Source: Aldrovandia affinis
Lineage: Eukaryota; Chordata; Actinopteri; Notacanthiformes; Halosauridae
DNA: 64,000 nucleotides
Direction of reading: 5' to 3'
Assembly (NCBI GenBank): GCA_029706075.1
Contig: JAINUG010000208.1
Coordinates: 372,001 to 436,000 of the forward strand
Shown here: positions 15,951-59,472 of the stretch, in pieces
Layout: each line of letters opens with the position of its first letter
How positions within the stretch are numbered: position 1 is the stretch's first letter
Made by a program: the position numbers and the translations under genes
The notes under the pieces: model-generated
What the model saw: only the letters and a program-made list of their open reading frames with translations
What the model was told of the DNA's origin: nothing
Database searches by the model: none

Positions 15951-17027
15951 AGAGAGGGAGACAGCCAGTATGGGGGTGAATTGTAATTAAAATTTTCAGT
16001 CTCGTTAAGTTGGTGACAGGCCGCACTGTGCCAGCCCCTTAGATGGATGACTGAGATCTGCCTTTAATACTAACGAACCAAAGATCGTTTAAGTTCAGGC
16101 CAAGAAAGGAAAAATTAATTAAGATATTTATGGTTCCAATTAATCAGTTCAGTGAGAGATGTCTAAAGCCTGCAGGGTTTATGGAACGGTGCATGCAGGA
16201 AGAAAATAATAGCTTTCTATCACTGGAAGACAATGGATTTTACCTACTCGTTTACCAAAACTAACTGCATTCACTGAGGGTCAGACCTAGGGTCAATACT
16301 AAGACCCCACCAATACTCAGCCCTCAGACCCATGGCCCTCCCATGACTCCAGCTCTGACCAGTTATATGACATAATCAATGCACTGATTGTGACGGGAGG
16401 GGGGCATTAGACATGTTTGGCACATCCGGCCAAACTCAGTTCCTGGGTTTCAGCTTCTCATATATAAGCCCTAGCTATGTGTGTGTGTGTGTCTGCACAA
16501 GTGTGTGTGAGAGAGAGTGAGTGTATGTGCCTGTGTGCATATGTGTGTTAGTGTGTGAGTATCTGTCAGTCACAGGGGCATCCAAAATGACTGCCTATAT
16601 AAAATGTGGGAAGACAGAGATAGAGTGATGTGGAAGGTGGAGGGGGAGACAGAGGAAAAGAGAGAGATATTTGAAAAGAGACAAACAAACCCACTGAGAG
16701 AGAAGGAGAGAGAGAAGGGACATCTACAGGGGATATTCAGACTTCAGTCAGGCCTGAATGACTTCAGCATTCTGACAGGGTGCTATAGAATGGGGCATTA
16801 AAGCACTGCACTGATACTATGCAACACAACACTGCACGGACTCACACTATGCAACACAGTGCTATGATTCACAACCCACTGACTCACACTTCACGACACT
16901 GCCATGTGTCTTTTTCCTGAGTGTCTTTGGCTGTCTGTCCATCCATTTGGTAAAAGGATTTATCCGTTTGATGGCTAATTTGCGACATCACTCTGTGTAA
17001 TTAACTCACCACCATGATAGCTCTAAT

Positions 17028-17048
17028 TATCTTTCTTTTCTCTCAAAG
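17028..17048 (+). other. Candidate 3' splice acceptor before the start-codon exon
   Basis: A pyrimidine tract TTATCTTTCTTTTCTCTCAAAG ends at 17048, about 215 bases before the ATG. Classical cadherin genes commonly put the start codon in exon 2 after a non-coding exon 1, so this may open the first coding exon. An in-frame TAA at 17191-17193 lies between it and the ATG, so the leader would be untranslated. No matching upstream donor was identified. Confidence 0.4.
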
Positions 17049-17262
17049 GCTGCTGATACTGAGACCTACAGTGAAAAGGAGAAAAGAAGAGGAGAAAAGG
17101 GATTGTGGGATAATGGAGGGGTGAGAGGGAGGGATGGAACTAAAGAAGGGGTGGTGAAAAGAATGAAGAAAACAAGAGAACTTCTCCCCCTAAACGGTAG
17201 CTCTTGCCACATCTACCACCAGCCAAACCAGATTTTGGTCTAAAATCCTACCCCAAAACCTC

Positions 17263-18672
17263 ATGGCTGCCAGAACTCTGATCCTATTGGTCATCCTGTG
17301 CCTTCGGGAGGGGCTTTGGGGAGGGGCGTCTATCTCCAAGGTTGTCAGGAGAAGAGGTATACGAGCTCATGCACCAATGGCGAGTGAGAAGAAACCAGTG
17401 GATCAATGGGATCCGAGCATTAAAGTGAACATGGTGTCACAGGTGAAACCCAGCAGCCTGATTGGACACCCTCCTGGAGCCGATGCTCGGCTGGTCATTC
17501 ACACAGAAACAGTGCCAGGCAATAGCGCAGCCCTGGTAGCCAATGGGAAAGGCATTGCTCCTGAAAATACCAAGACTGTGCCGCAGCTAGAACAGAAACC
17601 AGTTTCTAATCAGGATTTGGCCAGTCACACAGCGGCTGAGAGAGGTGGAGACGCTCTGGATTGGAGCGAGGCCCAGAATGGCAGTAAGCTGGAGCAAAAT
17701 GATAGAGCGCTCTTCCTCCGCATGCCAGACCTCGGTAACCATGGCAACAAAATCAGATTCAGACCCTTGGTTAGATCCAGAGTGAGACCAAATCTGACCA
17801 TTCTTACCACGGTGGTTCAAGGAAGACGGTTCCCCTTGGATTTGCCCGAGACGTCAAACCTGACTGAGAATGACGGTCTGCCACCTGTTTTGGCGGCAAA
17901 AGAGAGCCCAGATCGAGCGGCGAAAGCCCAGCTGCAGAGAAAGAGCACTGCAGGACTGAGCTCTCGCCCTGGGGCTGGACGGAGCAGGAAGCCAGATCCC
18001 CTCCTTTTGGGTCACGGCCAATCAGATACGAGCATCTCTACAGAGCCAGGGCCGGACGGGGCAGTCACTCCAGGCCTTGTCCTTGCGGGCGCTCAGACAG
18101 CGCGTCCAGATTCCAGCCTGGTTACAAATCCCGACTCTGATTCAGATCGGAGCGTGCAGACTCACTGGAGTCAGGTGGGCAAAGCCACCTTATATTCTGG
18201 AGACAGAGCTGAGCCTTGGGTACAGAGGCAGTCTACCGTTCACACCACACTGACCGTGCAGAGTGAAGGGAGCTGGAACACGGTCTCTAGCGCTCTGCAG
18301 ACGGATCTTCCTCTTCCGCCCGTGGTCAAGGTGGATCCCCAGGCCAAGAGGAGCCGGAGCAGCGGCAGAGAGGGCAAAGGAAAGGAACCAGAATCTGAAA
18401 TTACTCTGGATTCCATGAAAGGAGAAGCCAAACCAGACAGCAGCCGTGTTCTCAAGCTCCAGCCCAACCCCGATCCGGATTGGGAGAAGGCAGAAAATAG
18501 TGTGACGGTAGATTCATGGCTGGAAAACAGGGGCCTGGTGTTTGAGGAAGAGGAGGATGGGCAGGACCAGGGAGGAGCGGAGACTCGGTCGCGGAGTAGG
18601 CGGAGCTGGATCTGGAACCAGTTCTTTGTGATCGAGGAGTACAGTGGACCTGAACCTGTGCTTATCGGCAGG
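17263..18672 (+). CDS. cdh24: Type II cadherin (cadherin-24-like), coding exon 1: signal peptide, giant prodomain, start of EC1
   Basis: This exon encodes residues 1-470 of a calcium-dependent cell-cell adhesion receptor. The start ATG is the first after an in-frame TAA at 17191. Residues 1-22 form a signal peptide with core LILLVILCL. Residues about 23-447 form a prodomain. It is hydrophilic, has no cysteine, is rich in Ser/Pro/Asp/Lys, has sequons at N139, N177 and N199, an acidic EEEED at 428-432 and basic patches (RRR at 29-31, KRSR at 362-365). RSRSRR ends at 447, followed by SWIWNQFFVIEEYSGPEPV, the type II EC1 start with Trp2 and Trp4. The exon ends AGG|GTAAGA, phase 0. Prodomains of classical cadherins are normally a few dozen residues long, so this one is about ten times larger. 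GPEPVLIG and the exon 2 motifs favour cdh24 over cdh8, cdh11 and cdh22. Confidence 0.93.
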
Positions 18673-18678
18673 GTAAGA

Positions 18679-18875
18679 ATGTGTGTGTGTGTGTGTGTGA
18701 GCAGATGTGTGTGTGTGTATGTGTGAGGGGGTGCATGTGTCTGTGTGTGAGTGCGTGTGTGTGTGTGTGAGTGTGTGTGTGGGTGAGGGTGTGTGTGTAA
18801 GTATGAGTTTGTTTGAGTGTGTGTGTATGTGTGCGTGTAGGTGTGTGAGAGTGCGTGTCTGTGTCAGTATGTGTA
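18679..18875. repeat. TG-rich microsatellite just inside intron 1
   Basis: GTGTGTGTG tracts start seven bases after the exon 1 donor and continue for about 200 bases. They let the exon's reading frame run on for 17 more codons before a stop. Those codons are intronic. Confidence 0.9.
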
Positions 18876-19858
18876 TGCATGCATTGCTTATCGTTGTTGC
18901 ATCACACCAAGAATATTCTGCATTGTTGCATTATAACAGCAACATTCAGCATTTTAAAATTATACCACCTACATTCAGCATTGTTGCGTTATATTGTCAG
19001 TATTGAATTTGTTTTTTTGCAGTCCTTTTTTCGCAGGGTTCAGCAGGGGCTGTGCACCACACTGGTTTCTGCTTTTGTCCGCCCTAAGATTTTTAACGGT
19101 TCAATAACATTTCTCAGGCGAGTTGGAGGAAGTGGGGTTATCTGGGGTATTTCCTTCTGACTAAGTCTCTTGTATTAGAGGAAAGAGTGAAACCGGAAGG
19201 GGAAGAGGACTGCAGTGTGAACGGTAACGGGGAGATAATAACAGCAATTAATATTAATGCAGTACTTAAATAAAACATGCAAAGGACAATAAGGAAAAGA
19301 GGAGAACAAAATTATAATAACAACAGTACAGTAAGTAATAGATGAAGTAGAATAATAAGGAGAAAAATATTAAGAAGCACACCCCCTCGCAGTGCACTCT
19401 CTGTGTGCCCATCACAGATTCCAGAGTGAATATGGAGCGCAGCCAAGCTCTCGGGCTGCCAGGAATTTCAACTGACACCTCTGCGAGCTCTCCCCGCATG
19501 TTCTGTGTCCGCATATGTATAATTCTCTTACACAGTATAATGCTCTTATAAATCTTTAATCTCCCCTTCAGCCAGAGCGAGTCCGTGCCTTGCAGCGAGG
19601 ATCAATGCTGATGTTGTTGCTGCTACTGCTGTTTGTCACGAAAATAAAATAATAATAGATGAAGGAAAAGCGATGGAAAGCAAGCACTTGAGCCCCGCAG
19701 CAGCAGCGGGGGGAAACCCCTGCCCCCCCGATGCGATGTGCACCGCGCTGAGCACGCAGGTCACGAGGCGCGCCGCAAGGGTCAATTACACTCGATGCAT
19801 GGTGCAGAGGATGTGCGGGCCAAATGTGGGCCAAACATAAATGTGGAAACGTAAATGT

Positions 19859-20034
19859 GGTTCTGTGTGCCTCAGTAGGTAGAGCATGGCGTTGGCAACG
19901 CTTAGGTTTTGGGTTCGATTCCCACTGGAACCACATATACTGGCAAAAAACCCCACAAAAAAACAAATGTGTGCATTCATTACTGTAAGTCGCTTTGGAT
20001 AAAAGCGTCTGCTAAATGGCATACATACATATAA
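19859..20034 (+). mobile_element. tRNA-derived SINE with L2-type tail
   Basis: A polymerase III box A-like TGCCTCAGTAGG is at 19868-19879 and a box B GGTTCGATTCC at 19912-19922, within a tRNA-like head. The 3' tail contains GTCGCTTTGGATAAAAGCGT followed by CTGCTAAATGGCA, the tail shared by many fish SINEs and their partner LINEs. The head lacks a convincing full cloverleaf, so it is a SINE and not a tRNA gene. Confidence 0.8.
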
Positions 20035-21514
20035 ATGCACGGTTGTTGAAATCGGAGTCTGCGCTGCACACCTCTCAAATTTAGAAAAAATGTGTACACG
20101 CCACGGAAGCCGCGTTTCATACACGGGAGATGAATGGTTGACTAGCAAGATGGGCGAGGCGTTTCCGGTAGTTTACTTCGCCTCCTTCGTAAATCATCTA
20201 TACTACATCTATAACGCACTCCGTGCTTTACAGATCAATAGCCATGAATAACTTGACGTTTACAAAGACCGGGCGCACCGCTTGTGACCACGAATGTTGT
20301 GGATGCCGGATCACGTATAATTCACCCCATGTTGTTTATTATATGAGGTCGTTACCTTGAGCTCTGCCGCGAGGCCCTTTCGGACTGCACATATGCTCAA
20401 CTTTACATATGCTCAAAAAGCCGTTTCACTTTCCACCAGGACAAACTCAGAGAATGTTGTCACTATTTGGCAACTCTGACCAGTTATGAGCACATGGTTG
20501 AGCTAGCTAATCTCAGGATAAGTCAAAGATCAGTCCTATATTTTTAAATAAACTAAAAAGTGGATATTATTGCAAGAAGTCATTTAGCTTTCAGACTTTT
20601 CTACTGGCAGACTGTCCGCCATCTTGTTAAGATATTTTGTGCTTCTCAATTCGATCGTGATTGGTCGGTCTCACCCACGCCATCAAACGCAACAATGAAA
20701 GTAAAAATATTGTAACTTTGGCACACCACATGGCTCTATGTACAGCTCATGAGCATCCGGGCATTTCTCTCCGTTGAAAACAATGAAGGGAAAGTCGCAA
20801 TTGCCCGACTGCGCTTTCGGTGTGAAAGACCCAGGATCCGGATTGCGGTGTGATGGCGTGGATTTATGAGGGTGAACCCGTGCCTTAATGAAGTTTTAGC
20901 AGGGGTCAGGGAGACGTTGGCCAGCTGCTGGCCGAGAGTAATGATGAAGTGTCGGTGACCCGCCTTGGAGCAAAAGACCAGCACGCCACTGAACGCCGTT
21001 AACAGTGGAGACCGGGGCAAGCAGCGTGTGGTATATTAACCTCATACACAGAGTCTCTGTGTTGATACGATGAACCAGGGTAGCAGTATGGGGTATATTA
21101 ACCTTGCTCCGGTTCAGCGAGCATGTGCGTCTTTGTCAACTCTCATCCCCGGAAGGTATATGTTTCAATCGTGAGTCATATCTTTTTTGTGTGCATGCAT
21201 TAGTGGGGGGCACTTGCTCCTTATATCTGTCAGGATGACACAATCTTTACCCTTACTCACCTGGATAATGTTTTTCAGCCAGCAGTTTTACCCATGAGGA
21301 AATTATTTTTGGTAATTGTGCAGGGCTTTCATGCACTTGTTTATTATACCATACCAGTGGAGAGACAGTGTTGGATTAGGGCAGGGACGAGGGGAAATGC
21401 GCTTCTCCTAGCGTCTCCCTGGCCAGAGCTGTCTGGCTGTGGCTGGGGGACGGCAGTGTGACAGACAGAGCTGCATGTCCCTGGCAGCTTAGAGAGCCCA
21501 CTACTGTGCTCCCA

Positions 21515-21712
21515 AACACACTCACACACACGATACACTCATGCACACAACGAATCACTCACACAAGCACACACACACACAGACTCATGCATACACTAAC
21601 ACACACACCGACTCCTGCAGACACTCTCACACTGACTCACTCACACACACAGACTCACGCATGCACTAACACACGCAATGACTCCTGCACACGCTTACAC
21701 ACACACACACCA
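21515..21712. repeat. AC-rich microsatellite
   Basis: An irregular CACACA tract with CACTCA and GACTCA variants. The Thr/His-rich frame across it is an artefact. Confidence 0.85.
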
Positions 21713-21860
21713 CACAATTTAATTCAATTCAAATGGAGCTTCATTGTGTTTCATTTGTGTTGCCAAAGCATAGTACACATGTTCACAAACAAAAATAACA
21801 ATATGATTTCAACAACAATAAGTTATTGTATGTTGATAAACACAAGCATGTATATATACA
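21713..21860. repeat. TTCAATTCAA dispersed repeat, copy 1
   Basis: Contains AATTTAATTCAATTCAAATG, then GTTGCCAAAGCATAGTACAC. Three related copies lie at 37693, 52880 and 63843. All share the TTCAATTCAA start and, where well preserved, GCTTTATTGGCA and TTGCCAAAGC. The family is common in fish. I cannot assign its class. Confidence 0.55.
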
Positions 21861-21897
21861 TGTATGCACATACATACACATACACACACATACTTAC

Positions 21898-23154
21898 CAG
21901 TGGCGGCTGGTGAGCTGGAAACAGGGGAGGCATAAACCTTACCTTTAAACCAATGATTATCCCAGCCTATTTCCACTTATTTCCTGGATTTTCAATCAAG
22001 AAATTAATTACCTGAGTAATTAATACCAATTGGTATAGTGTTCCAATTTTGTTTTGTGATAGCATTGTTTTTCTTTACATCAGCGTTAGGGATGTTGGTA
22101 CTGGAGAGCCATAGGGTCTGCTGTTTTTTTTTGTTACTCAGCACTTATTTGATTGATTAAAGCAGTTGATTACACAGCTAACTGGCCTCACCTGGTTTGA
22201 TGTTTAGGGTGAACACAAAAATCATAAAAACATCATAGTAGCATTTTCCTTATGTCTACAGATTATCTGAACTTGTGCATAAATGCAATCAGCGTTCTCC
22301 GTGCCTCAATTCAAGGAGCATTAAAGACTTAAGTATCTGTTCATCTGATCTGTGCAGATCAAGAAGTTTATTGTTCGTGAAGAAGGACCGTTTTCATAGA
22401 ACTGAAGTTTGTTTGCTAGGTTTCGTTACTAGTTGCGCTCAAAGGTAGTGAGCTCCGCAGTTAACGGAGGGACTTATATTAATAAGTAGCCTACTCTTTG
22501 AAATGATTTCATTGATTTTTACTCAATTAAAGCCCATGTTGTCATTTACATTCTCTATCGTGCCATGAAGAAAAAGAACACTACAACAAGAGACACGATT
22601 AGTAGAAAGCTTTGGGATTGCCAGTTAATTATTCAGATAATTGCCATCCTTGTTAATCAAACAATCTCACGTTATAGCTTTCTCTTTCTTCACATCACAT
22701 TACAGAATGCAAATTCTAAGATGGAATTGAACAAAAACAGTGTAATAGCTTTAGGAGGAATTCCTTTCCTTAAATGTGTATGGCAGCAGCTTTGAGTGCA
22801 ACATGCAAAAAAAGGCTAGCAAACAACCTTCAGGAAGTCTGTGTGCTGTTTCATGTGAATTTAAGTTGCAGAATCTTGCAGATCAGTTTAATGCCTTTTA
22901 TGTCTTCAATATTCCCTGAATTCAGACAGCGAACAAAGAGTAATTATCCCCAAGTTCAAATAATATGTGATATAGGAAAACTCTATAAAAAACAATTATC
23001 ACAAAATACAATTGGCAATCATCATACCTATTGATGTTGGTTATTCAGCAAATTAATTGTTGTTACCCGAGGAAAGTAAACAGACACAGGTGAGAGTAAT
23101 GACTGGTTTAAAAGGTGTGTGCCTCCTCTGTTTCCAGCTCACCAGCCACCACTG
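21898..23154. mobile_element. hAT-like DNA transposon with about 60-bp inverted repeats
   Basis: The left end CAGTGGCGGCTGGTGAGCTG and the right end CAGCTCACCAGCCACCACTG are inverted. The match continues inward through GAAACAG, GGAGGCA and CTTTAAACCA. The flanks ATACTTAC and ATACATAC match at 7 of 8 bases, as expected for a hAT duplication. The interior (1.1 kb) has no recognisable transposase. The frame at 22774-23034 matches nothing I know. A decayed terminal piece of the same family lies at 38340-38550. Confidence 0.75.
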
Positions 23155-23270
23155 ATACATACATACTCACACTCACTCACACACAATCATTAACACTAAC
23201 GCACACACATACAAAATGACACACACATACACATGCAAACAATGCACATACACACACACACCCTAACCCA

Positions 23271-23471
23271 CAGGTGTCAAACTCATTCCATCGAGGGCCG
23301 AGTGTATGCAGGTTTTTGTTGCAACCAATGCACTACACCAGGTGATTTCACTAATTAGCTCACCTCTTCAACCAAGGAGGGAACCTAATTGAAATCACCT
23401 GATGTAATGCATTGGTTACAACAGAAACCTGCACACACTCGGCCCTCGATGGAATGAGTTTGACACCCCTG
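23271..23471. mobile_element. Palindromic hAT-type MITE (201 bp)
   Basis: Almost the whole element is an inverted repeat: CAGGTGTCAAACTCATTCCA on the left and TGGAATGAGTTTGACACCCC on the right, with CATCGAGGGCCGAGTGT next to the left end. The flanks CCCTAACCCA at 23261-23270 and 23472-23481 are identical, which covers an 8-base hAT duplication. It could form a long hairpin in RNA or single-stranded DNA. Confidence 0.85.
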
Positions 23472-25077
23472 CCCTAACCCAACACACACAAACACCAACC
23501 TAAGCACACACACCAACCAAAGAACACACAAGCAGACAATGCACACACACAAGCACACAAGCAACACACACACACACAGCTGAGTGAGCTGTGGAAAGCT
23601 GAGCTGACAGGGAGACAAAGTGATATAAAGAGAGGAAGGGGTGGCGAGCGAGAGATATGTAGCTGGGGAGGAGGAGATTGGGACAGAACCGAGCAGAGGG
23701 AATGCGGGAAAAAGACGGGAAAGGGATAGAAAGTGAGAATGAATCAGTAAAGGGGGAAAGAGAAAGTTTGTGCGAGAGAAGGAGTGTGTGTGTGTGAGAG
23801 GGTGCACAGGATGCACCTGCTGAGAATGGGATTCTCTCAAATAATGTGAACAAGGCTTCTCTGCTTCAGTTTTGTTTTCGTGGAGAAGTTGCTGTTTTTA
23901 TCTTGCAGAGAAAATCATTTTGCCTGCAGGCTGCCGCTCAGTGGGAGAGAGAGCAATTAAAGAGAGAGAGAGCGATGGAAGGAGAAACAGAGGAGGGGGG
24001 GTAGCGGGTGAAGGTTAATGCAGAAAGTTTGACTGAAGAGGACTACATGGTGTGTTAGAGACAAAGAGGGGGTTAATGTAATATACATGAATGTTGTCTG
24101 GCTGACTTAACAGCACATCAACCCTGCAGAGAGAGACAGAGGGAGAGGAGAGAGAAGAGAGAAAATAAATGGCAGGTGTGAAGAAGAGAGGGAGGGAGAG
24201 GCAGGGAGAATTTTTTAAAATGCAACTCATCTTAGTCACATCTTATGCCCACCAAAAAAGAAATCTCAGTTGCAAACCAATGTATCACCTACACAGGAAT
24301 GAGATTGTGCTGTTCATGCCAGGAATCAGGCAGTGCCAACCCACTATTGTTCAAAAATGTGATGTGTGGTTGTACATATTTTAATTTGAATTAAAATCAT
24401 ACCTCCAAAGCCATAATATCTAATCAAAAGACTTCTAAAATCTAATCGAAGGACGTGTGTTTAAAATTGGACATTGTTCGCCACAAATTTCATTTGTGTT
24501 TAAAATCAGTCTCGACAGTTTCTGGTGGGTCCCTTCACCCTATTTCAGATGTTATTTCAGTATTGTTTGTTTTTTGTTCAGCCTCATCAACACTCCTAAG
24601 AAACTAGCCCCACCCTGCGCCAGTGCTGTTGCGAGAATCACTCAGGATAAACCGCTCTCTGGTCAAATTTATTCAGTGTCCTATGAAAAGGTCAGACAGT
24701 TGATTACTCAAACAGAGTTGTTAGTAAAGCATGCTCATTACAAAAAACAATCAGAAATATATATTTTTGGGCTCTCTGGGGACAAAAAAAAGGATGTTTA
24801 TCATTCGTACTTTCACTTTGCAATAGATACAAGTGCAGTGGCAGCCATCATTCTGTGCACAGGTCTCTTGTGCTCTCAAATGACAGGGGGTTATTTCCAT
24901 GCCAGCATGCAATCTGAGAGAGAGAGGGCGAAAAAGAGAGGGAGAGCCCGAGAGGGAAAGTGAGAGAAGGAGAGAGAAAGAACAAGACTGGTTAAATGCC
25001 ATTTTATTACAAACCCCTTCAGAAGTGAGAGTGGGGACTGATTCACACAACAATACAGAGAAGGAGAGAGAATTTTG

Positions 25078-25114
<37 letters not shown>

Positions 25115-25623
25115 CAGAGACACAGAGGGAGGCACAGAAGTGATCACAGGTGATATTACCCCCCTCCTCTCTCCTCTTTCGTTTTCTCTCACTTACAATT
25201 CTTTGCAATTTCAAGGTTCTTTATCAAGATGAAACATGCTTCCCCTTCTTTCTTTCTCTCTCTCACCCCATTGGCCCCCCTCCACCACCCTAACACACAT
25301 TAGGCCACTATTTTAAGCACAAAATTCTTATAATGGCACAAAAAACTAAAAGAACATTACATGGCAACCCATGTGTCCATGACCTGCCTTTTCCCCTTGC
25401 TTTTCTTTTTTTTAAATGTGTTGTGAAATATACAATAAAACCTGAAAAAGGGCACCACATTTTAGTGCGCTACGTAAGCCAACCCTGCTCAAAACCTGGC
25501 CCAGATTCACATTTCTGGGGCAAACAGATTTTTTTTGCATAATAAATAATAATGGCTGTGCAAGATAACAATTAATATTAAACAGATTGTCATAATAATG
25601 CACATGATAATTATGAATAATGA

Positions 25624-26322
25624 TGTAGTGTGGGTCGAGGATGGAAGAGCCACTCGCAGATGTCACGAATATCTAAAAGCTAACTACGAGTAGTCAGCCA
25701 CTAAGTCTGCAAACAGGTAAGGGAGCAGGGGAAAAAATGGATAGACAAAGAAAAATAAACTCCGGGCATAAAGTCCACGGAAAATAATAATAAAACAGAA
25801 AACAACCCAAGGGTTGAGGACTCTTCAACAAAGAGGTAAGAAACTCAAATGATTTTAGAGACTTTAGCTCTGGGAGTTTTTAAACCCAAAAACAAAGAAT
25901 GAATCTCGAAAAGGAAACGCCACCGGAGTGACGAGCAATAAACCTATAGCTAGAAAGGAAATAATCCTCCTAGAAAGGTAACCACAGAGTGGTAACGCTG
26001 ACCCTTTTAAATGAGATGCTAAATAGTACCTTCTCTCTTTAACTGAGAGACCACAGGGTGGAAAACTAATACCTAGTTCTTAGTACCGGCTAGAGTGTAA
26101 CAATGGTTTACACAGAAGCGTTTGTATGAGGTAAACGCAGACCTTAAATAGTAGGCGGAATAAACACTGATAATCCACAGCTGGCCGTGATTGGAAAATA
26201 CACCGACAAAAGACCATATAAGGAAAATGGAAATGACAATGATTCCTCACACAAAACAAAAGAAAACAGACCATCACATGGTCAAGCGCCCTCCAGCGGG
26301 TGAACAAGGTAAAACCATAACA
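25624..26322 (-). mobile_element. Solo LTR, family 2, with 5-bp target duplication
   Basis: It begins TGTAGTG and ends ATAACA, flanked by AATGA at 25619-25623 and 26323-26327. Read on the minus strand it starts TGTTATGG and has a TATA-like TATTTAAGG near 26133. It shows no clear sequence match to the other LTRs apart from this layout. No retroviral genes adjoin it. Confidence 0.72.
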
Positions 26323-26479
26323 AATGAATGTTAGCAGGCCAGCCCAGGGGTGGTAGCGATGGGAGAAAAAATAATTCCAACAGAATAAGAGCACCAGAGT
26401 CAAGAGAGACAGAGAGAAAGAGAAGGGGGGAGAGGGAGAGAAAAAGATGGAGAATGAGAGAGAGAAAGAGAGACAGGCC

Positions 26480-26990
26480 TGGCCTTACCCTAAACCATAG
26501 GGAAGATACATTTCTGCTCTATGTGGATGACCTGTTGCTGCTGTCACCCAAAGAACAGGGGCTACAGCAGCATCTGGATCTGCTGGAGCAATACTGTTAG
26601 AACTGGGCCCTGGCAAAAATCATAATCTTCCAATAAAATCCCAGATCTAAGGAAGGCAGACACCTTTTCACTCTAGGCACCATTGCCCTACAGTAATGTT
26701 ACCTATTAAGTTATGATTACCTTGGACTGAAAATCAGTGCCTCTGGGAACTTTTGTCTGGCAGTGAATGCATTAAAAGACAAAGACCGTAGAGCTTGCTA
26801 TACAATCAAAACAAAATTCTACAAAATAGACATCCCCATTAAAATTTTGTCAGAAATCTCTGACAGTATGGGGCTCACTCAGTCAGCAAGACTACACTAG
26901 ATGGGATAAGCATCCAATAGAACCCTGCATGCAGAATTTGGTCAAAATATACTGTTTGAGTACACCTTCCGTCTGGACTATGGCTAACTG
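26480..26990 (+). pseudogene. LINE reverse transcriptase fragment
   Basis: It encodes LLYVDDLLLLSPKEQGLQQH, holding the YVDD catalytic box of reverse transcriptases, then HLDLLEQYC and a stop. Further on are YLGLKISASGNFCLAVNALK and FYKIDIPIKI in shifted frames. Its 5' side abuts a GA-rich tract and its 3' side is replaced by a Tc1 fragment near 26995. It is truncated and inactive. Confidence 0.75.
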
Positions 26991-26999
26991 GGCACTCCT

Positions 27000-27476
27000 T
27001 CATTTTTTAGCAAGATAACGACCCGAAACACACCTTGAAGTTGTGCAAGAACTATCTGGTGAAGGGGGAACGTGAAGGGCAATTCAAACTAAGGACCTGG
27101 CCTGCCCAGTGTCCAGACCTCAATCCCATAGAACTTGTATGGGATGAACTGGACAGAAGAGTCAAAGCAAAACAACCCATAAGTGTGTCTGGGAATTGCT
27201 GCAGGAGAGCTGGGAAGACATGTCGGGTGATTTCCTACTGAAACTTATTAACTGAAATGCCAGTGTTTGTGAGGCTGTTATCACAGCAAAGGGTGGCTAT
27301 TTTAAGGAATAAAAGATTCAATTTTCAATTATATTTTATTGAGCATTGCTTTGATGTTCCTTTTGTTTATTGTTTCATGTGTTTTTTGTAAATTTGTTGC
27401 AAATATGGTGTAAAACATTGTCAATTATGAGATAAACCTAGTTTCCAGCAGGTGTACTCAAACTTTTGACTGGTAC
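27000..27476 (+). pseudogene. Tc1/mariner transposase C-terminus and terminal repeat
   Basis: QDNDPKHTLKLCKNYLVKG, then WPAQCPDLNPIELVWDELDR, match the last part of Tc1-like DDE transposases, including the third catalytic region. A TAG stands where the family has Gln before QDNDPKH, and the frame is lost after about 27190. A terminal repeat, GTACTCAAACTTTTGACTGG, follows near 27453 and is cut by the solo LTR at 27477. It resumes at 28090. Confidence 0.82.
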
Positions 27477-28084
27477 TGTTATGTTGAGTGGATGCAGACC
27501 TGGACCCAAATGCAGACTCGAAACGTAGATGGATTTGCGCTCCACACAGGAGGCGTTTAATGCGCGGATAAACAAAAGGATGACGGGAGAACACCGTCAA
27601 AACACTGGCAAACAGAATTAGCCGGGTGGCTACAAAACTAGAGAACAGGTAAAATAATAAACGAACAAAACCAAAAGTAAAACAGGCAGCGAACGAACAG
27701 GCAAACTAGAGAACAGATAAAATAATAAACGAACAAAACCAAAAATAGAACAGGCAGCGAACGAACAGGCAAGACTAACAGACTAGGGAAACGAACGACA
27801 GCCATACAAGAGTAACAAGTACGGATTGGCACTGAAGTGAGTGCGTGCTCAACATAAATAGGCAAAGTGAAATAACTAAATTGACACAGCGTGCGGAATG
27901 TGTAAGGGAGTGGTTGTGACAGGCTGAGACTAAACGAGGAACAGAAAACAGAATGCGGAAGCGGCGAAGCCGCGCCCCGCAAAACACACGACACAGGGTG
28001 AAAGCAAAAACAAGACATGACACGCAAGGAAAGAACTGGCAGGAAACACAAGGGAGATGGACAGGACGGGACGGCGATGTAACA
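27477..28084 (-). mobile_element. Solo LTR, family 1 copy B, inside a Tc1 terminal repeat
   Basis: It runs from TGTTATG to GTAACA and is flanked by GGTAC at 27472-27476 and 28085-28089. It shares with copy A (11056-11747) GCAGACCTGGACCCAAA, CAGGAGGCGTTTAAT, AGCCGCGCCCCGCAA and GACATGACACGCAAGG. Minus-strand landmarks are a CTATTTATG TATA-like box near 27854 and ATTAAA near 27560. A stretch containing GAACAAAACCAAAA is duplicated in tandem at about 27655-27770. Confidence 0.85.
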
Positions 28085-28469
28085 GGTACTGTATTAAAAA
28101 GAAAAAGAAAAACACCAGCCAGGTTAGGCAGCTGGTAATAAATGTCAAAAACAGAGCACAAAACAGTATAAATCTTAAGTCAATTCCCAATGATACATTG
28201 CAATGTAAGGCACTTAAAACCCAAGAACTAAGCCCAAAAAAGAGCCCCTTCAGTCACCTGGTTCTGAACCTAACTAACCCTGTAACAACAGTTAGTAGTT
28301 AGTAGCATGCAGGCAGTGGTCAAAATGTGAACTCACCAATAAGATACAACTATGGTATCCTGCTCTGTAGAGTTTTTGATTAAACTGCCTGCTCACCCCC
28401 CATATTGAAATTCGCAGTCAATTGACTTAGAGTTGCTCACCTGTTTATCCTTGCACCTTAAACTAATGC

Positions 28470-28760
28470 ATTGACACCATGATCCAGGAGTATGTGCTTC
28501 TGACCACAGTTGCCCCTAGTTGATGATGTCTTTCCATGACGACATCGCCTTAAGACACTGTTCCTCATGAAAAATCAGCAAGTTGAGCTGTCTTCATCAC
28601 TGAAGCTCCTGCCAAGCATGCCCCGACAATCACCCCTCTTTCAAAGACACTGAAATCTCTTCTTCTAGCCATGGTGGCTATAATTATTGGCATAATTATG
28701 TAGCATTTTTGTACATGACCCTGAACATGCTGGAATATTAATTGCTTAATAGAGAGAGAG
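28470..28760. mobile_element. Probable Tc1/mariner fragment
   Basis: Contains TCTTCATCACTGAAGCTCCT, ACATGACCCTGAACATGCTG and ATTAATTGCTTAAT, which I associate with a non-autonomous fish Tc1-like element. Neither terminal repeat was found. The call is from memory. Confidence 0.4.
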
Positions 28761-30878
28761 TAAATTGTAAAAATATGACATTTTTTTTACAAAATTGTAC
28801 AGCTTCGCTCAAATGTTCTAAACCTAGACAGACTTCCAATTCAGCTAGGGAGGAAGAAAGTGTGTGACCTGGAAGAACAATATATTCCTGCCTGCCTCAG
28901 CATGAGATACAGTGAATGACACTAAGACAGCACATTTATTATATTATTAGTGATTGTGGCCCTTGTGTTAATTTATGAGAAGAAAACTTGCAAGTAACAT
29001 TTGTGACTTCTTATTTTGTATTTTGTTATTTAGTTGTTGCTTTTTTTGGTAATATCTATTTATTTTATGCCATGTCCATTAAGCACTTGAAGTGAAAAAG
29101 AAAGACAGGCAGAGGAAAAAAACAGAGAGAGAGGAATACACTCAGGTTTATAGTTCCTTAGAGAGAGAGAATAAAAGTGCCTCCTGTACTGGTAATGGCC
29201 CTGGAGCAATACTGTCAGAACTGGGGCCTGGCAGGAGATGGGGGGCGGTAGAGAGTTATGGAAGGAGAGAGAAAGATAAAGATAATTATTTGGGTAGATT
29301 CCTCTGCAGGGTCTGATCTGATTGTTGTAGAGACTGATAGCTGTGGTGTTAAGCTGTGTCAAGAGAGGCTGCAGAGGAGTGCTACAGTAGTAAAACCTGA
29401 ACAGCGTCTCCAGCTGACTCCTCTAAATATAAATATGCAAATAGGTCTCACAGTGTCACAACTTATTTTGATTTCTGATATGTGAACCATATTGTTATGA
29501 TGAAACCACTTCGACCAGGAAACCCCTGCAAAATGCCACAGCTATGGCTAAAACTGGAGCCAATGCTGCATAAGGGGTAGCCTGGTGTAGGTACTGCATA
29601 GCATGATGAAACCAAAACAAAATAGGGGAGTACAAGTACACACAATACAAATCAGTAAAATGGATTCACCTCGCCTGAGGGAAACTGTTTTCATGCCATG
29701 ACCAGCCGAGCCTTCTGGCCACAGGCCACTGGCTTTGTATCCTCCATTTTTTTTTTACCAGGATCTGTTTGCTTTGTTTGGGGACAAAGAAACATTTGAA
29801 ACAAAATGCAGATATGGGCAGAGCTTTAGCCAAATCAAACAGGATTGCTCTAAAACAAAAGAGAGATGACTCTTCTCCGCTAGTGTATGGCATAGTAAAA
29901 AGGTGTCTTTTTACTTTTGACTCCAATAAGCAGTTTGAAATCAGCAGAGGTTCAAGCTACACAAATGGATGTTTAAGTATAAAACAACAAAGTAGGATGA
30001 CATACAAAGCCAAATTCATCCCTCAGTGTTGTACATCAAAAACCTGGACTCCAAACCAAACATGTTTGTGTGTATCAAAATATTCAAACCACACGAGATG
30101 TCAGGAAGCAAATAAACAACCTTGATCTTCAACTTGCTGCCATAAAACATTATTCCTTTTTTCTTTCTTTTTCTAGAACTCCTCCTCTTCTGACAAGTGT
30201 GCTCATATTTACGAAACTTGAGGATATTCACTAAACACACACAGTGGATTTTGCGTGCATAAAACATGAGAGAAATGTGGATATTTTCTGACAAAGCGGC
30301 TGCTAAATGTGGGAGTAGATTAATGCAAATCATAATCCAATGAGACCTGATGAGATTTATCAAAACTTGCTATACCTACTCGAGGCATGGCTGTTGCGTC
30401 TGAAAGATTTGAAAGCCAGGAATAAAACTTTGCTAGCTATATTGAAAGTGAAGGTTTGCGGCTATGTTTGTTAAAATAACTCATTTTAGTGCATACCCTG
30501 TTAACCCAAGAACAACAGCACACACAATATTTCACAAGACGCACAGTAATTTGCAGCCACTAAGGCCTCTCTTGGTATATTCAAATCCTTAGAGGTTGAC
30601 ACAAATTATTGTTGTATGGTTTATGATTTATGGTTTTGCAAAAATGCTGAACGGAGTGTGATTAAGAGTTTGTAACAAATGTCAATACAAATGACAAGGC
30701 TTCCAGGAACAGCCCACCACTCAGGGATCACAGAGCAGTTTTCCACAATGATACTGCATTGTCAGGCTGGCTGATGGTTCTGTCTGTTTTGATCTGCCAT
30801 CCTGAAAGGAAATGTAAGGACCTCCTAATGGGCAGAAGCACAGCATCTTTTGTTGTATTTAAGAAGTATATCCTTCCC

Positions 30879-31508
30879 TGTCACGTCTCGTGTTCGTGTT
30901 CCCCGCAAATAGATGATTTGGTTCATTTCATGTTTTCCTGGTTGTCCAGTCCGTGTTTTCACTGTCGCTTACCTGTTTCCAGTCTCATCATTGTATTATT
31001 GTTTTCACCTGTTCCTCATGTGTTTGATTGCAGCAAGCTGCATCCATGTTAATTCCTGATTGTTTCTCGTTATGTTTGCTGTATATAAGCTGTGAGTTTT
31101 CCCATGTTTGTTGCCAGATTGTCTTGTGCTTTGCTTATGCTTCCATAACTTTCCAGCGGTTTCTTTGGTTACCCATGTTTTGTTTCCTCGTGTTCGTGCT
31201 TCCGTGTTCATTCGTGTCTCAGTCTCGTTCCCGATCCACCTGTTCGTGCTCCTCGTGGTTCCAGCCCCACTCCTCTCTGTGTTCCCCGGACTGATTTCCT
31301 GATACCGACCTCCGCCTGCCCATTGACCACGTCTTGCCTGCCTGTGACACAGCTGGAGCCTGAAACGAACTTTGCCTGTCCCCGACTACTCTCTGGATTC
31401 CTGTATTGCCCTGATTGCTCCCGTTTGACCATTGCCTATTGTTTTTGCAATAAAGAACATTATTGCATTCTTGGGTCCGCGCCTGGTTTTCCGACACCAT
31501 ACCTGACA
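30879..31508 (+). mobile_element. Solo LTR, family 3, with 6-bp target duplication
   Basis: It begins TGTCACGTCTCG and ends CCTGACA, flanked by CTTCCC at 30873-30878 and 31509-31514. A TATA-like GTATATAAG lies near 31081 and an AATAAA at 31449-31454, in the order expected for a + oriented LTR. No internal genes adjoin it. Open frames on both strands are incidental. Confidence 0.82.
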
Positions 31509-31739
31509 CTTCCCAGTACAACCACTCCAGTCCTTTTTGACTAGCTGCAAGAGCAGCTGTGCACACATTTGATTCTGAGATTCAAATCCAACATATGTTT
31601 AAGTGGAGGCCTCTGCTCAGGCACAGTATTAACAGTAACACACACACACATACACAATCTTACACACTCTCTCTTGGTAGTCCATCGCATCTGAAGTTGA
31701 CCTCCTCCTCTGCTTTATCAGTGTGTTCTCATGTGGCTA

Positions 31740-33480
31740 TAGAGTCACCTATCTGTGATGCACACTGATTTTTGCATATTGTGGACACATAGTCTGGTTT
31801 GGCAGGCCAGGCATGCCTCTTCTCCCATTCCTTGTGCGCTGGATGGATCTATTTTCCTCAAAGTGTTGTAGCCCTTACAGACAATGCTGTTGGCAGGTGT
31901 GAGTTGCTCCAGGTGGGATGGGCTAATGCTGCATTTTTTCATTGTATAATTTATTCTGGCCTCCGACGTCTTCTCTGATGTTCCTTTTGCCAGAACATCT
32001 CTCCCCAAGTGCAGTTAGCCATAGAAGATTTTCAGGGGCAGGCACACTTGTCAGATGCCCGAACCAACGGAGTTAGTGCTAGATGACAGTTGCCTCAGTG
32101 CTTGTGCATTTATCTCTCTGAAGCACGTCTGTGTGGGGTATATGGTCACTCCAGGTGATCCCGAGACAAGGATTTGCCCGAGACACCTGATGTGAAAGGC
32201 CTCCAGCAGCTTGATGTGGCAGCTGTACGTAGTCCATGCGTCACAGCTATAGAGGACTGTTGAAATGCAGACTGCTTGATATACTGCTATTTTTGTTTTG
32301 AGGTTGAGGTTGTTGTTTTGGAACACTCAACGAAGCTTGTTTTAGCCAGTTCTGAACCTCAGAATTGTAGCATGAACAGCTGCTGAAAGGGAACATTGGA
32401 GGGCCGCTGGTGTATGTGCCACAAGGGCACAGTCATCAGCATTCTGTAGCTCAAGAATATGCTCTGGTGTCAATTTAGTGGCAGCCTGCAGTCTTCTGAT
32501 GTTAAAAAGACTTCCATCCAGTTTGAAATCAATAGCTACCATACTGTTGTCTTGTATTTCACTGCACAGTAGTGATGTAACACACAAAAGATAGATGTTC
32601 AAGAGTGCTGGTGCAAGCACAGAGCCTTGTCTTACCCCAGTGCTTACTCTGTTCTGATCCTTGGCCCCCCACAGTCACACGGGCCATCACACTTTCATGA
32701 AGCTGATGCAGGATGTTCACAAACTTTGGCGGACAACCGTACGTCAGGAGAATATCTCACAGGTAGCTCTCGGTTGATGGAGTCAAAGGCCTTGGACAGG
32801 TTCTGATGTTGTTCTCTGCATCTCTCTTGCAGTTGCTGTGCAGTAAAAAATGTTTTTGCATCTTACCACTGTTGGGGTATGTGTTTCTGCTTCCATGCTT
32901 CCAGAGTGAAGAAGTGAAATGTCCTGCTGCTGCAAAGATAGTTGTCCTATCACTCTCTTCCAGATGTGTTGGTTCTTCCCCACACTGGCATTAAAGTCGC
33001 CCATTAGGATGATCTTGTCATTCCTTGGAATACGTCTCAGGACCTTGCCTACAGATTGGTAGAAGAGGTATTTTGTCTTATTCTCTGTTGTTAGGCTGGA
33101 AGCATAGACACTGAGGATAGTAGCATATCAACTTGTTCCCAGAGGAATAATGAGTGACATACATCTTTCACTTATACTAATTGGTGTTTCTGTGAAACTG
33201 GGTAGGAGACCAGTTAGGGTTTTTTATTGCAAAGCCAATTCCATGCAGGTATTGTCCTCCAGGGGGATATCCTTTCCAGAATAAAGTATAATCTTCACCT
33301 TCTTCCTTGAGTGATCCTTTGCCAAGGAACCTGGTTTCACCGGAGGTGTCGATACTAATGTTAGCATCTGAGTTGTGCAGCTACAAGTGCGGTTCTTTGC
33401 TTGGGTCTGTCAGAATTTTCATTAATATCCAGCAAGGTTTTTGATATTCCATGTTGTGAATCTTAGTGAGAGGTCTTTTA
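31740..33480 (-). pseudogene. LINE remnant: endonuclease and reverse transcriptase on the minus strand
   Basis: The minus strand reads MGDFNASVGKNQHIWKRV near 33000, the AP-endonuclease GDFN motif. LQNADDCALVAHTPAAL near 32400 follows, with the ADD box of the reverse transcriptase, then YQAVCISTVLYSCDAWTTYS near 32250, the thumb or C-terminal region. Stops and frameshifts separate these blocks. Residual similarity may extend to 34300 as 5' sequence. The clade is uncertain; the motif spellings suggest an RTE-like element. Confidence 0.75.
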
Positions 33481-34461
33481 AAATTTTTGCATTTGATTTT
33501 TAATTTTCATTTTTAAAAAAGTATATTTCATGTCCCGTTTCAGTGTGAGTAATGCAGTCCTAAACAGGGCTGCTTAGTCGCACGGGGGTCTGCCGAAAGC
33601 AGCTGACACTCTAATACACGCTGCTAGCGACCATAATAGCCCTGTGCCGCTGATGTGCAGGGGTCAGGTGGGGAGCTCCCAGAGCATTCATTCCTGCTTC
33701 CGTCACCAGACTCCCCATTGTCACCAGAATTTAAAATGTCCAAATCAGTACTTCACTGACTCACAGACGTGGATACCTGCTCATAGAAGTTGTTTAGATT
33801 GCCATTGCAGTAGTGCTTGCCCCAGCTCCACTATCTTCATTGTGATAAAGTTGACTCCAACAGCAAGGGAAAGACCCAGGATAATCATTGAAGCATCTTC
33901 AAACAACTGCAGGTAGCTGCCAGAGCTCTTGTGTGCCACTAGCTTAAGGAGTGCCACTAGAAACTGCTTTGATCGTAGGGTGTGCTTCCTTAGCCTTTGT
34001 CTCCTTACCCACAAGGCAGTGGGGCAATGGATGGCAGGCCCCGGTCTGGACACCATACCTCTGGGGCCCATTGCTACCCCAAGATCCCCTACTAGTTTAG
34101 TCTGAGGTCGCGAGACCACCAGTTACCGTGTGTGGCCACGAGGAGGCATAATAGAAGTCTTGCTGTGGGAGAGGTTCTGTACTGGCAGGGTGGAAAAGTT
34201 AAGCACTTGGCTTTCCTTTTCACCACATGGGCTAGCCAGTAGCAGTACCTGGAAGTGAAAAGTAGTGAGCAAGCAAGTAAGCAAGCATGCACTAGACGTG
34301 TCACTATACCCTATGGGACAAAGCCCACTCACTCACACTCACTCACACACACGCAAACATGCGTGGTATGTCGTGGCAGTGCCGTGTTGATGGTGGAGAC
34401 AGGCGACAAGATCATAGGCAGGTGTTTAACGTTGAGGACACATCTCTGGAGAGGGGGAAAA

Positions 34462-34463
<2 letters not shown>

Positions 34464-34511
<48 letters not shown>
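34464..34511. repeat. (CT)n microsatellite
   Basis: A pure CT run of about 46 bases in intron 1. Confidence 0.95.
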
Positions 34512-34512
<1 letters not shown>

Positions 34513-35333
34513 CCTGTGTCCCTCTTTCTCTCTTCCCTTTCATCCTCCTCTCAGCACTGTGGGAGATGTTCTGGCTTCATTAATGCAAGATGCTGTGATC
34601 CATCATTAAGGTTCTGGGTGTGAGCCTGATGCAGAGCAGGAGCCCATCTAACTGTGCCGCTGTGTCGGCAAGCATTTCCCTGAATCAAAGGCCCAGAATC
34701 CAGTGCACTGGTCTCTCGGCAACCCAGCACTGGGCCAGGGTTCCACTCCACTCTCTTCAAGCCACACAAATAACAAAACCATGCACAGTGCCCATGGCAT
34801 ATAAATTAGCTGGATGTAGACCAGCAAGGTGACACTTCTATGCATAGTGTGATTGAAATATTAATTCAGTCCTGTCTAAAATGGCAACTAAATAATAAAT
34901 ATATATAAATTAGGTGGGGAGGGCTTGCAGGATTGCAGTTTAATGATGTCTGTATTTGTTGATTAAATTAAAGCAGAGGACTTAGTACTATGATGACAGC
35001 TGCGCTCTAACTGTCAGGGTGCCAGATTTTAAAACAGCCTGAAGGCAGCGTGTTTGAGACACAGCCCAGGGGGGGTGGCATCAGGTGGACTCTCTCTGCC
35101 CTCTCAACCTCCAATTTACAATCTAGGTCACAGGAAATTTGCTGTGGTCTTGGTCGGCATCCGATTCAGAGTAACACATGAAGTACAGTACATGCACATG
35201 ATACTATCAGCCTAATCACATTCACAGTTATACATGAGGTGCATGCACATTCATTCCATCTAATCCCTGCATCTCCTTGACTTCGAGACACAAGTCTGAA
35301 CCAGGCCTACATCAGGATTATCTATGGCTATAC

Positions 35334-35460
35334 CAGGGGTTCCCAAACTTTTTTAAGGCCCCAAAAAAAAAAAAAAAAAAAAAGACCACCTTCTGGCAAA
35401 GGATTCTCATCTCAATAAAATTGTTGATGTTAGACACTGTTGAGTAACACAATAGTAGAT
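35334..35460. mobile_element. hAT-like terminal fragment with poly(A) run
   Basis: CAGGGGTTCCCAAACTTTTT is a typical hAT (Charlie-like) end. It is followed by a run of about 20 A residues at 35363-35384. No partner terminal repeat was found. Confidence 0.4.
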
Positions 35461-35504
35461 GGAAGAATGTTTAAATTGGTAATTATATATATAGTTATGT
35501 ACAT

Positions 35505-36310
35505 AGTGTGTATAAAAAGTATTCACCCCCTTGGACTTTTTACACATTTTATTTTGTTACAACATGGAATCAAAATTAATTTAATTGGGATTTATTGCTA
35601 CTGATCAATACAAAATAGTAAATGTCAAAGTAAAAAAAATACTCTAAAGCCCTTTCTAAATGATTTACAAATAAAAAACAGACAATAATTGATTCCAAGT
35701 ATTCATGCCTTTTGCTAAGGCACACCTTGTCTTCAGAGGTCACATAATTATTTGATTGGAGCCCACCTGTACAGTATACAACTGAGGTGTTTGGAGTGAT
35801 TTCTAATTAAATACACCTGTCTGTGACAGGTCCCACAGTTAGTTAGTGCATTTCCAAACAACAGCTTCAAGACCAAAGAACATTGAAAGCAAATCTGAGA
35901 AAGGTTTCTCCGAAAGCACCAATAAAGGGAAGGATATAAGAAGATTCCAAAGACTTTGAATATCCCCTGGAGCACCGTTAAGTCCATCATAAAGAAATGG
36001 AGAGAATTCTTGCCAAGAACAGACCGTCCTCCAAAACTGAGCATCCGTGCATGAAGTGCACTTATTCGATCTATGACCAAGAGGTCTATGGAGACTCTGA
36101 TAGAGTTACAGTCTTCCATGGCAGAAATGGGAAAAACTGTCCATGGAACAAAAATAGCCCAAGCACTTGACAAATTTGCTATTTATGGGAGGGTGGCAAA
36201 AAGAAAAACACTGTTAAGGAAAACATGAAAATCTTGCCTAGAGTTTGCCATAAGGAATGTTGGAGACTTTCAAACCAAGTAGTGGAAGATTCTATAGTCT
36301 GATGACACCA
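35505..36310 (+). pseudogene. Decayed Tc1/mariner element
   Basis: It starts with TGTATAAAAAGTATTCACCC. The + strand shows remnants of the Tc1 DNA-binding region (AAGACCAAAGAACATTGAAA, then GCAAATCTGAGAAAGGTTTC) and of the transposase, with many stops. The far terminal repeat is missing or too diverged. It is related to the shorter copy at 8500. Confidence 0.65.
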
Positions 36311-37823: not shown

Positions 37824-38118
37824 CTGCACACAGACATGGATAGGGGTGACGGACGAACAAAGTACATTTTACGAGGGGAAGGGGCAGGGTCCGTGTTCGT
37901 GATCGACGAGAAGACTGGCAACATCCACGTCACGAAACCACTGGACCGTGAGGAGAAGGACGAGTACCGCCTGATCGCCACAGCGACGGACCGGCAGACG
38001 GAACGCGCCCTGGAGCCTTCCTCCCAATTCATTATCCGGGTGCAGGACATTAACGACAACCCACCTATCTTCCAGGACGGGCCCTATAGCGCCACTGTGC
38101 CGGAGATGGCCAACATAG
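37824..38118 (+). CDS. cdh24: Cadherin coding exon 2: body of EC1 and start of EC2
   Basis: This 295-base exon equals the usual length of the corresponding type II cadherin exon. It encodes residues 471-568 plus the first base of codon 569. Visible motifs are [29 protein letters not shown], the calcium-binding LDRE at 510-513, and the EC1-EC2 linker DINDNPPIF at 545-553. The acceptor is CCCCCAG at 37817-37823. The donor is ATAG|GTACTG, a weak but GT-type site. VFVIDE with TGNIHVTK and INDNPPIF are the best evidence for cdh24 among type II members. It joins exon 1 in phase 0. Confidence 0.96.
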
Positions 38119-41334: not shown

Positions 41335-41454
41335 GTACATCTATAATCCAGGTGACAGCAACAGATGCAGATGACCCTACCTATGGGAATAGTGCCAGGC
41401 TGGTTTACACACTTGTCCAGGGTCAGCAGTTCTTCTCAGTGGACCCTCAGACAG
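41335..41454 (+). CDS. cdh24: Cadherin coding exon 3: first half of EC2
   Basis: A 120-base exon, the standard size for this position in type II cadherins. It encodes codon 569 (completed) to 608 plus one base of codon 609. It carries the calcium-binding DADDP at 579-583 and the family motif [18 protein letters not shown]. It ends with FFSVDPQTG. The acceptor is CTTCTCTCAG and the donor CAGACAG|GTCAGA. Both junctions are phase 1. The frame is exact across both. Confidence 0.95.
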
Positions 41455-44785: not shown

Positions 44786-44953
44786 GGATCTTGCGTACAG
44801 CGGTACCAGACTTGGACAGAGAGACACTGGATCAGCACCTGGTGGTTCTGCAGGCCAAGGACATGGGGGGCCACCTGGGGGGCTTGTCAGGCACCACCAC
44901 CGTCACAGTGAAGCTGACCGATGTCAACGACAACCCCCCACGCTTCATTCAGA
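44786..44953 (+). CDS. cdh24: Cadherin coding exon 4: second half of EC2, start of EC3
   Basis: A 168-base exon, again the usual type II length. It encodes codons 609-664 plus one base of codon 665. Motifs are the calcium-binding LDRE at 618-621, [20 protein letters not shown] at 631-650 (the type II EC2 signature) and the linker DVNDNPPRF at 654-662. The acceptor is TTTCTCAG. The donor CAGA|GTAAAG makes a serine with exon 5. The codon split matches other family members. Confidence 0.96.
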
Positions 44954-59290: not shown

Positions 59291-59472
59291 GTGTATGGTC
59301 ATTCTCAGTGTCTGAGCTAGCCATGCCTGGGGTGGAGGTGGGGCGTGTCTCGGCATCAGATGCAGATTTGGGGGAGAACGCTGAGCTGGAGTACAGCATC
59401 CTAGAGGGGGATTCTGGGGACACTTTCAACATCAGCACATCCGAGAGAGAGGCCATCATCTCCCTCAATAAG
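59291..59472 (+). CDS. cdh24: Cadherin coding exon 5: first half of EC3
   Basis: This 182-base exon completes codon 665 and encodes up to Lys725. It shows SFSVSELAMPGVEVGRV, the calcium-binding DADLGENA and a sequon at N711 (FNIST). The corresponding exon in other type II genes is about 188 bases, so two codons are missing in the loop before the REAIISLNK strand. The donor is AAG|GCAAGA, a GC site in phase 0, as the family phase requires. The nearest GT after it would add unrelated Gly/Arg-rich codons. The next exon, finishing EC3, was not found before base 64000. Confidence 0.93.

Follow-up and report, generated by a model that had tools for sequence, protein, structure and literature searches.

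A long, probably unfolded prodomain in a cdh24b-type cadherin of Aldrovandia affinis and its occurrence in ray-finned fishes

Introduction

In the deep-sea fish Aldrovandia affinis, a single exon of a cdh24b-type gene encodes a signal peptide, a prodomain of 425 residues, a convertase site and the start of the first extracellular cadherin repeat (EC1). The exon was identified in a stretch of 64,000 nucleotides, which is referred to here as the window. Cadherin prodomains are usually regarded as removable caps. The one described here is about ten times as long as those of sister cadherins and has long counterparts in many other ray-finned fishes, an observation that hints at a function not yet described. 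Overall, it is probably best explained as a largely unfolded, N-glycosylated propeptide which would be cut off by a furin-like convertase to arm EC1. The masking role in this explanation is carried over by analogy from other cadherins, and the reading of exon 1 for Aldrovandia was made from the sequence alone. Among the explanations considered, masking combined with an additional function of short conserved motifs was rated highest.

The First Coding Exon

The exon at 17263-18672 (+) was translated in a single open frame into 470 residues, in the order of signal peptide, prodomain, RSRR↓SW (the arrow marks the cut), type II EC1 start and GT donor. Its frame extends without a stop from 17194 to 18726, over 510 codons, with the ATG at 17263 as the earliest in-frame ATG of this stretch. 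The following features were assigned, where the end of the signal peptide at residue 22 is a putative one, set without a predictor:

17263..17328 (+), signal peptide, residues 1-22; from the translation, an AlphaFold helix at residues 2-19 and the common hydrophobic start of the homologues
17329..18603 (+), prodomain, residues 23-447, 425 aa, without Cys, rich in Ser and Pro; from translation, composition and homologues
17677..17685 (+), sequon N139-G-S, with the Asn column at least 90% conserved in a 52-row alignment
17791..17799 (+), sequon N177-L-T
17857..17865 (+), sequon N199-L-T, with N199 and L200 at least 90% conserved in the 52-row alignment
17980..17997 (+), RSRKPD, residues 240-245, the position occupied in many teleosts by SRSRKR↓DLID, with the KR pair missing
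18439..18465 (+), SSRVLKLQP motif, residues 393-401, with L399 invariant in the 52 rows
18532..18549 (+), GLVFEE motif, residues 424-429, with F427 invariant in the 52 rows
18592..18603 (+), RSRR convertase site, residues 444-447, cut after 18603; from the sequence pattern and homologues
18604..18672 (+), EC1 start S-W2-I-W4, residues 448-470; from matches to cadherin-11 and cadherin-8 chains
18673..18674 (+), splice donor GT of intron 1 (18673-37823)
37824..38118 (+), coding exon 2 (EC1/EC2); from tblastn and splice sites, as for exons 3 to 5
41335..41454 (+), coding exon 3 (EC2)
44786..44953 (+), coding exon 4 (EC2)
59291..59472 (+), coding exon 5 (EC3), followed by GC instead of GT

The original prediction of a prodomain of about 425 residues, contained in one open exon before a canonical EC1, was correct in coordinates and content and is backed by homologues. 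Its description of the region as free of cysteine, rich in Ser and Pro and with three sequons agrees with residues 23-447, which contain 0 Cys, 10.6% Ser, 8.5% Pro and the three sequons at N139, N177 and N199. For the internal basic patches of the prodomain, a scan of the exon for R-X-[K/R]-R revealed no furin consensus, the final RSRR being the sole match. On the DNA level, one weak pair of repeats was identified within exon 1. Directly behind its donor, at 18680-18864, a long TG-rich repeat is located, and a CA-rich one is present at the same place in a second gene of this type.

From residue 448 onward, the protein continues with SWIWNQFFVIEEYSGPEPVLIGR; this beginning of a type II EC1 matches the solved chains of cadherin-11 and cadherin-8 in the PDB. 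The Trp residues at positions 2 and 4 of mature EC1 are present (S448-W449-I450-W451), with RSRR↓SW directly preceding EC1, as in type II classical cadherins. A deposited hypothetical protein from Aldrovandia affinis, P0149, is identical to window exon 1 over its first 470 residues and represents the same gene. In P0149, Pfam identified five stretches of PF00028 and the catenin region PF01049, so that five EC repeats and a catenin-binding cytoplasmic region are present by way of the deposited record. Judged from the sequence, this exon begins the coding part of a cdh24b-type gene for a type II classical cadherin, whereby the assignments to cadherin-24 and to the a or b copy rest on hit names and on ectodomain similarity and identity rather than on a tree.

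The window covers EC1 to EC3, and no exons beyond exon 5 were found within it. The apparent GC donor after exon 5 is located at 59473-59474 (AAG↓GCAAGA). P0149 contains 16 additional residues, QDNDPKHTLKLCKNYL, between exons 1 and 2, encoded at 27011-27058 (+) within intron 1, where a stop codon immediately precedes them. We take this segment to resemble a piece of a Tc1/mariner-type transposase, and the insertion is probably a gene-model error. The cytoplasmic tail of Cdh24b contains 369-407 residues between FDI[T/A]AL and EFLRLRL in the four fish records measured. In P0149, this stretch corresponds to residues ~1100-1470, which lie beyond the window, and the model P0121 omits most of it.

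Occurrence in Fishes and Sister Genes

In three protein searches, the best 120 of 259, 314 and 412 matches were collected, resulting in 232 proteins and, with the window exon, a set of 233. Among these listed matches, the EC1 motif was present in 232 of the 233, and 183 of the 233 start with Met and contain 381 or more residues before the cut. The length before the cut ranges from 381 to 536 residues, with an additional value of 572 for P0125, the start of which looks like a mis-predicted extension. The 183 long prodomains do not represent 183 species, since the window exon and its deposited copy P0149 are both counted, some starts lie downstream of the signal peptide, a few models are faulty, and unnamed contigs may come from species already represented. 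The remaining 49 motif-bearing proteins are shorter; they have truncated starts, are shorter eel-type duplicates, are models skipping inner parts, or are unclear.

The named sources among the listed matches include a mormyrid, arowana, arapaima, tarpon, bonefish, eels, herring relatives, carps, zebrafish, characins, catfishes, pike, salmonids, cod relatives and many percomorphs. Long prodomains span osteoglossomorphs to percomorphs, and a gar in addition. For zebrafish, the record P0214 contains 465 residues before the cut. For gar P0226, 421 residues were counted and for the partial bowfin record P0229, 242; both are long and of low complexity with recognizable ends. This would place the expansion before the teleosts, if these models are right. 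R-X-[K/R]-R is present at the cut in all 183 long prodomains, the last two residues having belonged to the selection pattern. Absence of Cys was seen in 142 of the 183 and hence is not a general feature.

The search against fish cdh24 predictions thus found the long N-terminus in many deposited fish proteins, and the possibility that the frame might not be conserved in related fishes was answered by the many species that keep it. A downstream start giving a short prodomain, which had also been named as a possible objection, is unlikely, since the signal peptides of different fishes can be aligned with each other and, just behind them, R30 and G32 show at least 90% conservation in the 52 rows. 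A strict RRRG-like pattern from residue 21 on was identified in 134 of the 183, with truncated starts accounting for part of the misses.

Within the genome of Aldrovandia affinis, a second cdh24-type gene has the same one-exon design, with a Met-to-cut length of 298 residues and an identical donor position. For records resembling this second gene, the residues before the cut number 447 in Paramormyrops, 433 in Arapaima, 381 in Albula and 264-307 in eels. In five other type II genes, comprising the loci returned from the same genome, the cut is reached 53-62 residues after the first Met. These genes, which we take to be cdh11- and cdh8-like by their EC1 letters, share with the window gene the exon position, a basic convertase site directly before G-W-x-W of EC1 and the donor position, and differ from it in length (447 residues in the window gene). 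Five weaker matches without a locus, with open frames of 110-145 residues, were left out of this comparison. As internal controls, the values of 298 and 447 against 53-62 indicate that the exon itself is long in cdh24-type genes. In human CDH24, the prodomain consists of about two dozen residues.

Disorder and Proposed Role of the Prodomain

A search of the prodomain against Pfam gave nothing above the cut-off, the sole hit being unrelated, below the cut-off and of E 0.1. In the PDB, no match inside the prodomain was identified, with all 10 hits confined to residues 448-470. Neither database thus provided a profile or structure match of the Cadherin_pro type, the family of the folded type I prodomain.

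The TOP-IDP mean is 0.193 for the prodomain versus 0.089 for EC1-3, and the Uversky charge-hydropathy test places the prodomain on the boundary (0.414 versus 0.415). In an AlphaFold model of the window exon, the signal helix was the sole structured element and the mean pLDDT of the prodomain was 48.3. A second model, of P0022 from Lucifuga, comprising prodomain and EC1-EC3, was poor throughout (38.7), cadherin repeats included. Because that model failed also on the cadherin repeats, the low pLDDT of the prodomain is weak evidence for disorder. From composition, disorder propensity and the absence of Pfam and PDB matches, the prodomain is likely a largely unfolded chain. The earlier impression of a disordered region is therefore upheld by composition and TOP-IDP, whereas the structure models give no proof of it and the Uversky test lies on the boundary.

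For other cadherins, passages in three papers describe that furin-like convertases remove the prodomain and thereby expose the adhesive N-terminus (PMC8783681, PMC8325961, PMC10235514). By analogy, the Cdh24 precursor would enter the ER and become N-glycosylated there. The prodomain would stay largely unfolded and sterically block the strand swap of Trp2 and Trp4, until furin or a related convertase cuts after RSRR on the way to the surface and leaves an ordinary Cdh24. Additional tasks are probably performed by the short conserved motifs, such as trafficking, presentation of the cleavage site or release as a secreted fragment, and the remainder of the prodomain would be a fast-evolving spacer. 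Since 53-62 residues, signal peptide included, are sufficient in sister cadherins, the greater part of the length would not be required for masking. The surplus would require another reason, which might be convertase or transport control, a secreted product, or a tolerated expansion.

A Conserved Block in Many Teleosts

The second of these reasons is addressed by a block which is present in many teleosts. For its analysis, 161 teleost sequences were chosen for RKR-[D/E]-L-[I/V], by which the site columns are partly conserved through the choice itself; Megalops P0146 and P0147 were removed from this set by hand. Apart from the cleavage site and EC1, no other segment of these sequences reaches the conservation of the block that runs from NLTGSYGVLKLL to SRSRKRDLIDV. 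Over residues 201-250 in the numbering of P0006 (NLTGSYGVLKLLSKENLVRIVNSQ...SRSRKRDLIDV), the mean majority frequency is 0.74-0.93 per ten residues, as compared to 0.38-0.77 in the remaining prodomain up to the cleavage site and 0.99-1.00 in EC1. The site [K/R]R-[D/E]-L-[I/V] was found in 164 of the 183 long prodomains.

These frequencies and the wide occurrence of the site argue for the prodomain as a precursor of one or more secreted peptides, with a cut at RSRR and, for many teleosts, a further one at SRSRKR↓DLID. The gene would then yield an adhesion receptor and a secreted factor acting on its own. A conserved peptide flanked by convertase sites, as in hormone precursors, is present in the set of 161. 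In the window, however, such an arrangement was not found: its equivalent, NLTENDGLPPVLAAKESPDRAAKAQLQ...RSRKPDP, has kept the sequon and is devoid of both the hydrophobic core and the KR pair. Furthermore, a GVLKLLSKENLV-like core was identified in 141 of the 183 and is also absent from the rows of tarpon, bonefish and osteoglossomorphs, so that it may be a later gain. In tarpon, RSRKRDLI is present without the core, and in the osteoglossomorph rows neither is complete. The block may have been gained in other teleosts or lost in the Aldrovandia lineage; both fit the sequences.

Two candidate properties of the block were rejected. SRSRKR↓D is not a furin-type site, since P4 is Ser and R-X-[K/R]-R-[D/E]-L occurs in 0 of the 183. 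As a helix, the block is not amphipathic, its helical moment being reached by 0.83 of the shuffles. Both results also speak against the secreted peptide. This explanation, which overlaps with the preferred one, is thus put forward tentatively as an unlikely alternative. A shade more doubtful is the specific form in which cdh24 of ray-finned fishes would be a dual-product gene, its prodomain giving rise to a conserved secreted peptide of ~50 residues which ends in SRSRKR, has its own function, and either arose in many teleosts or disappeared in the Aldrovandia lineage.

Rates and Repeats within the Prodomain

In the 52-row alignment, L399 and F427 are invariant, and at least 90% conservation was identified for R30, G32, N139, N162, T164, R165, N199, L200, Q223, Q225, S241, K243, D245, H395, L397, P401, L425, V426 and E429. 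The window departs from the conserved columns at some places, for example, with I164 and R395. By strict patterns, SSHVLKLxP was counted in 157 and GLVFEE in 170 of the 183 long prodomains, and both are more widely shared than the SRSRKR block.

The prodomain has evolved fast. In nine pairs with a gap-free ectodomain alignment, the distance in the prodomain is 5.0-12.9 times that in the ectodomain; in the other seven of the 16 pairs, which have gaps or partial models, the ratio is 1.5-8.8. Such rates would also be expected from an expansion under low constraint, in which repeats and slippage lengthened a short ancestral prodomain and the extra length has no function. Tandem repeats are visible in the prodomains of gar P0226 and Megalops atlanticus P0147, and a PDxSVHT-like unit recurs. 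With a profile of four gar and bowfin units, 19 prodomains yielded 6 hits scoring at least 4 bits, where 0.06 were expected; one of them, a short one, lies in the window. A regular expression, made after the sequences had been viewed, was applied to 21 prodomains and matched more often than in shuffles in those of gar, bowfin and two eels, with 0 matches in the window. An origin of the growth from internal repeats is accordingly no more than a lead from sequence comparison. The frame has nevertheless been retained in all 183 long prodomains, and the invariant and nearly invariant positions, among them R30, G32, N139, N199, Q223 and Q225, as well as the strongly conserved block of the 161 sequences are at odds with a functionless stretch. 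An expansion whose extra length has no function is considered rather improbable.

Transcripts and Splicing

Two contigs were identified which lead through the prodomain without interruption. P0190 (6895 bp) encodes 1579 aa including the signal peptide, and proceeds from the prodomain through the cadherin repeats to the catenin region, both regions being confirmed by a Pfam run. P0213 (6874 bp) encodes 1552 aa with a listed start after the signal peptide and is uninterrupted from the prodomain to the catenin region. Their source label, lgn, is taken to mean contigs assembled from public reads. Since intron 1 alone comprises 19 kb in the window, both are best read as spliced mRNA. A segment spliced out of the exon, which the original prediction had named as a finding that would speak against it, is thereby countered in these two other fishes, the answer not extending to Aldrovandia affinis.

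Several fish gene models omit inner parts of the exon, so that an alternatively spliced short form is conceivable. For example, P0109, P0127, P0128, P0131, P0132, P0133, P0141 and P0218 join an earlier to a later part of the exon, as would be the case for an exonic intron with a short-prodomain isoform as the main product and the long form as a minor or retained one. Yet Esox and Denticeps also have contiguous models, P0157 and P0206, which are 100% identical over the shared first stretch, the contigs P0190 and P0213 are contiguous, and the inner motifs are conserved at the protein level. An exonic intron is therefore considered very unlikely.

Three uncharacterized proteins from other fishes, P0010, P0026 and P0039, stop a few dozen residues or fewer past exon 1. 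Judged by their lengths, these ends probably lie in intron 1; if real transcripts, they would code for a soluble prodomain.

The longest open stretch in any of 1000 dinucleotide shuffles of 16763-19172 was 306 codons, as compared to the 510 observed, and frame 1 stayed open in 0 of 2000 shuffles of 17263-18600, in agreement with the claim that an open frame of this length is very unlikely to be chance; the existence of homologues makes this question irrelevant. A chance frame, a wrong or downstream start, or a gene-prediction artefact, in favour of which nothing but the unusual length can be named, was ruled out by the homologues, deposited proteins, long contigs and shuffles, and its probability is close to nil.

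Comparison to Known Cadherin Prodomains

Among the titles and abstracts listed in searches of open-access literature, none dealt with a long prodomain in Cdh24. The protein is thus known as a database prediction, and the long cadherin prodomain of the cdh24 type is undescribed in the literature searched. The gene name cdh24b was found in at least two papers. A passage in PMC10281987 lists cdh24b among the up-regulated epithelial markers in goldfish fin cells. With a cap that is several-fold longer in two cdh24-type genes and in many teleosts, the processing of adhesion proteins may carry an extra layer of regulation or a second product. Since zebrafish P0214 has a long prodomain, this can be tested in a laboratory animal.

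The prodomain of the type I N-cadherin is likewise N-terminal, is removed by a convertase and holds the cadherin in a non-adhesive state, according to passages in PMC10235514 and PMC8783681. It has a cadherin-like fold, as described in parts of PMC10235514 and PMC8325961, whereas the window prodomain has no Pfam or PDB match. The general statement in the original prediction that prodomains of classical cadherins are a few dozen residues long and fold as a small domain was too strong, since a cadherin-like fold applies to N-cadherin and the five type II genes are merely short. For the type III DN-cadherin of Drosophila, cleavage of a large prodomain likewise takes place at a furin site preceding the mature ectodomain; there it consists of two EC repeats, as stated in a passage of PMC8325961, while in the window prodomain no EC repeat was found by Pfam. 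Deposited fish predictions also belong to this comparison, including P0149, P0142, P0150 and P0214. They are titled cadherin-24, cadherin 24 type 2b, hypothetical or uncharacterized, the prodomain appearing in none of the listed names, and represent the same protein or its orthologues, long N-terminus included.
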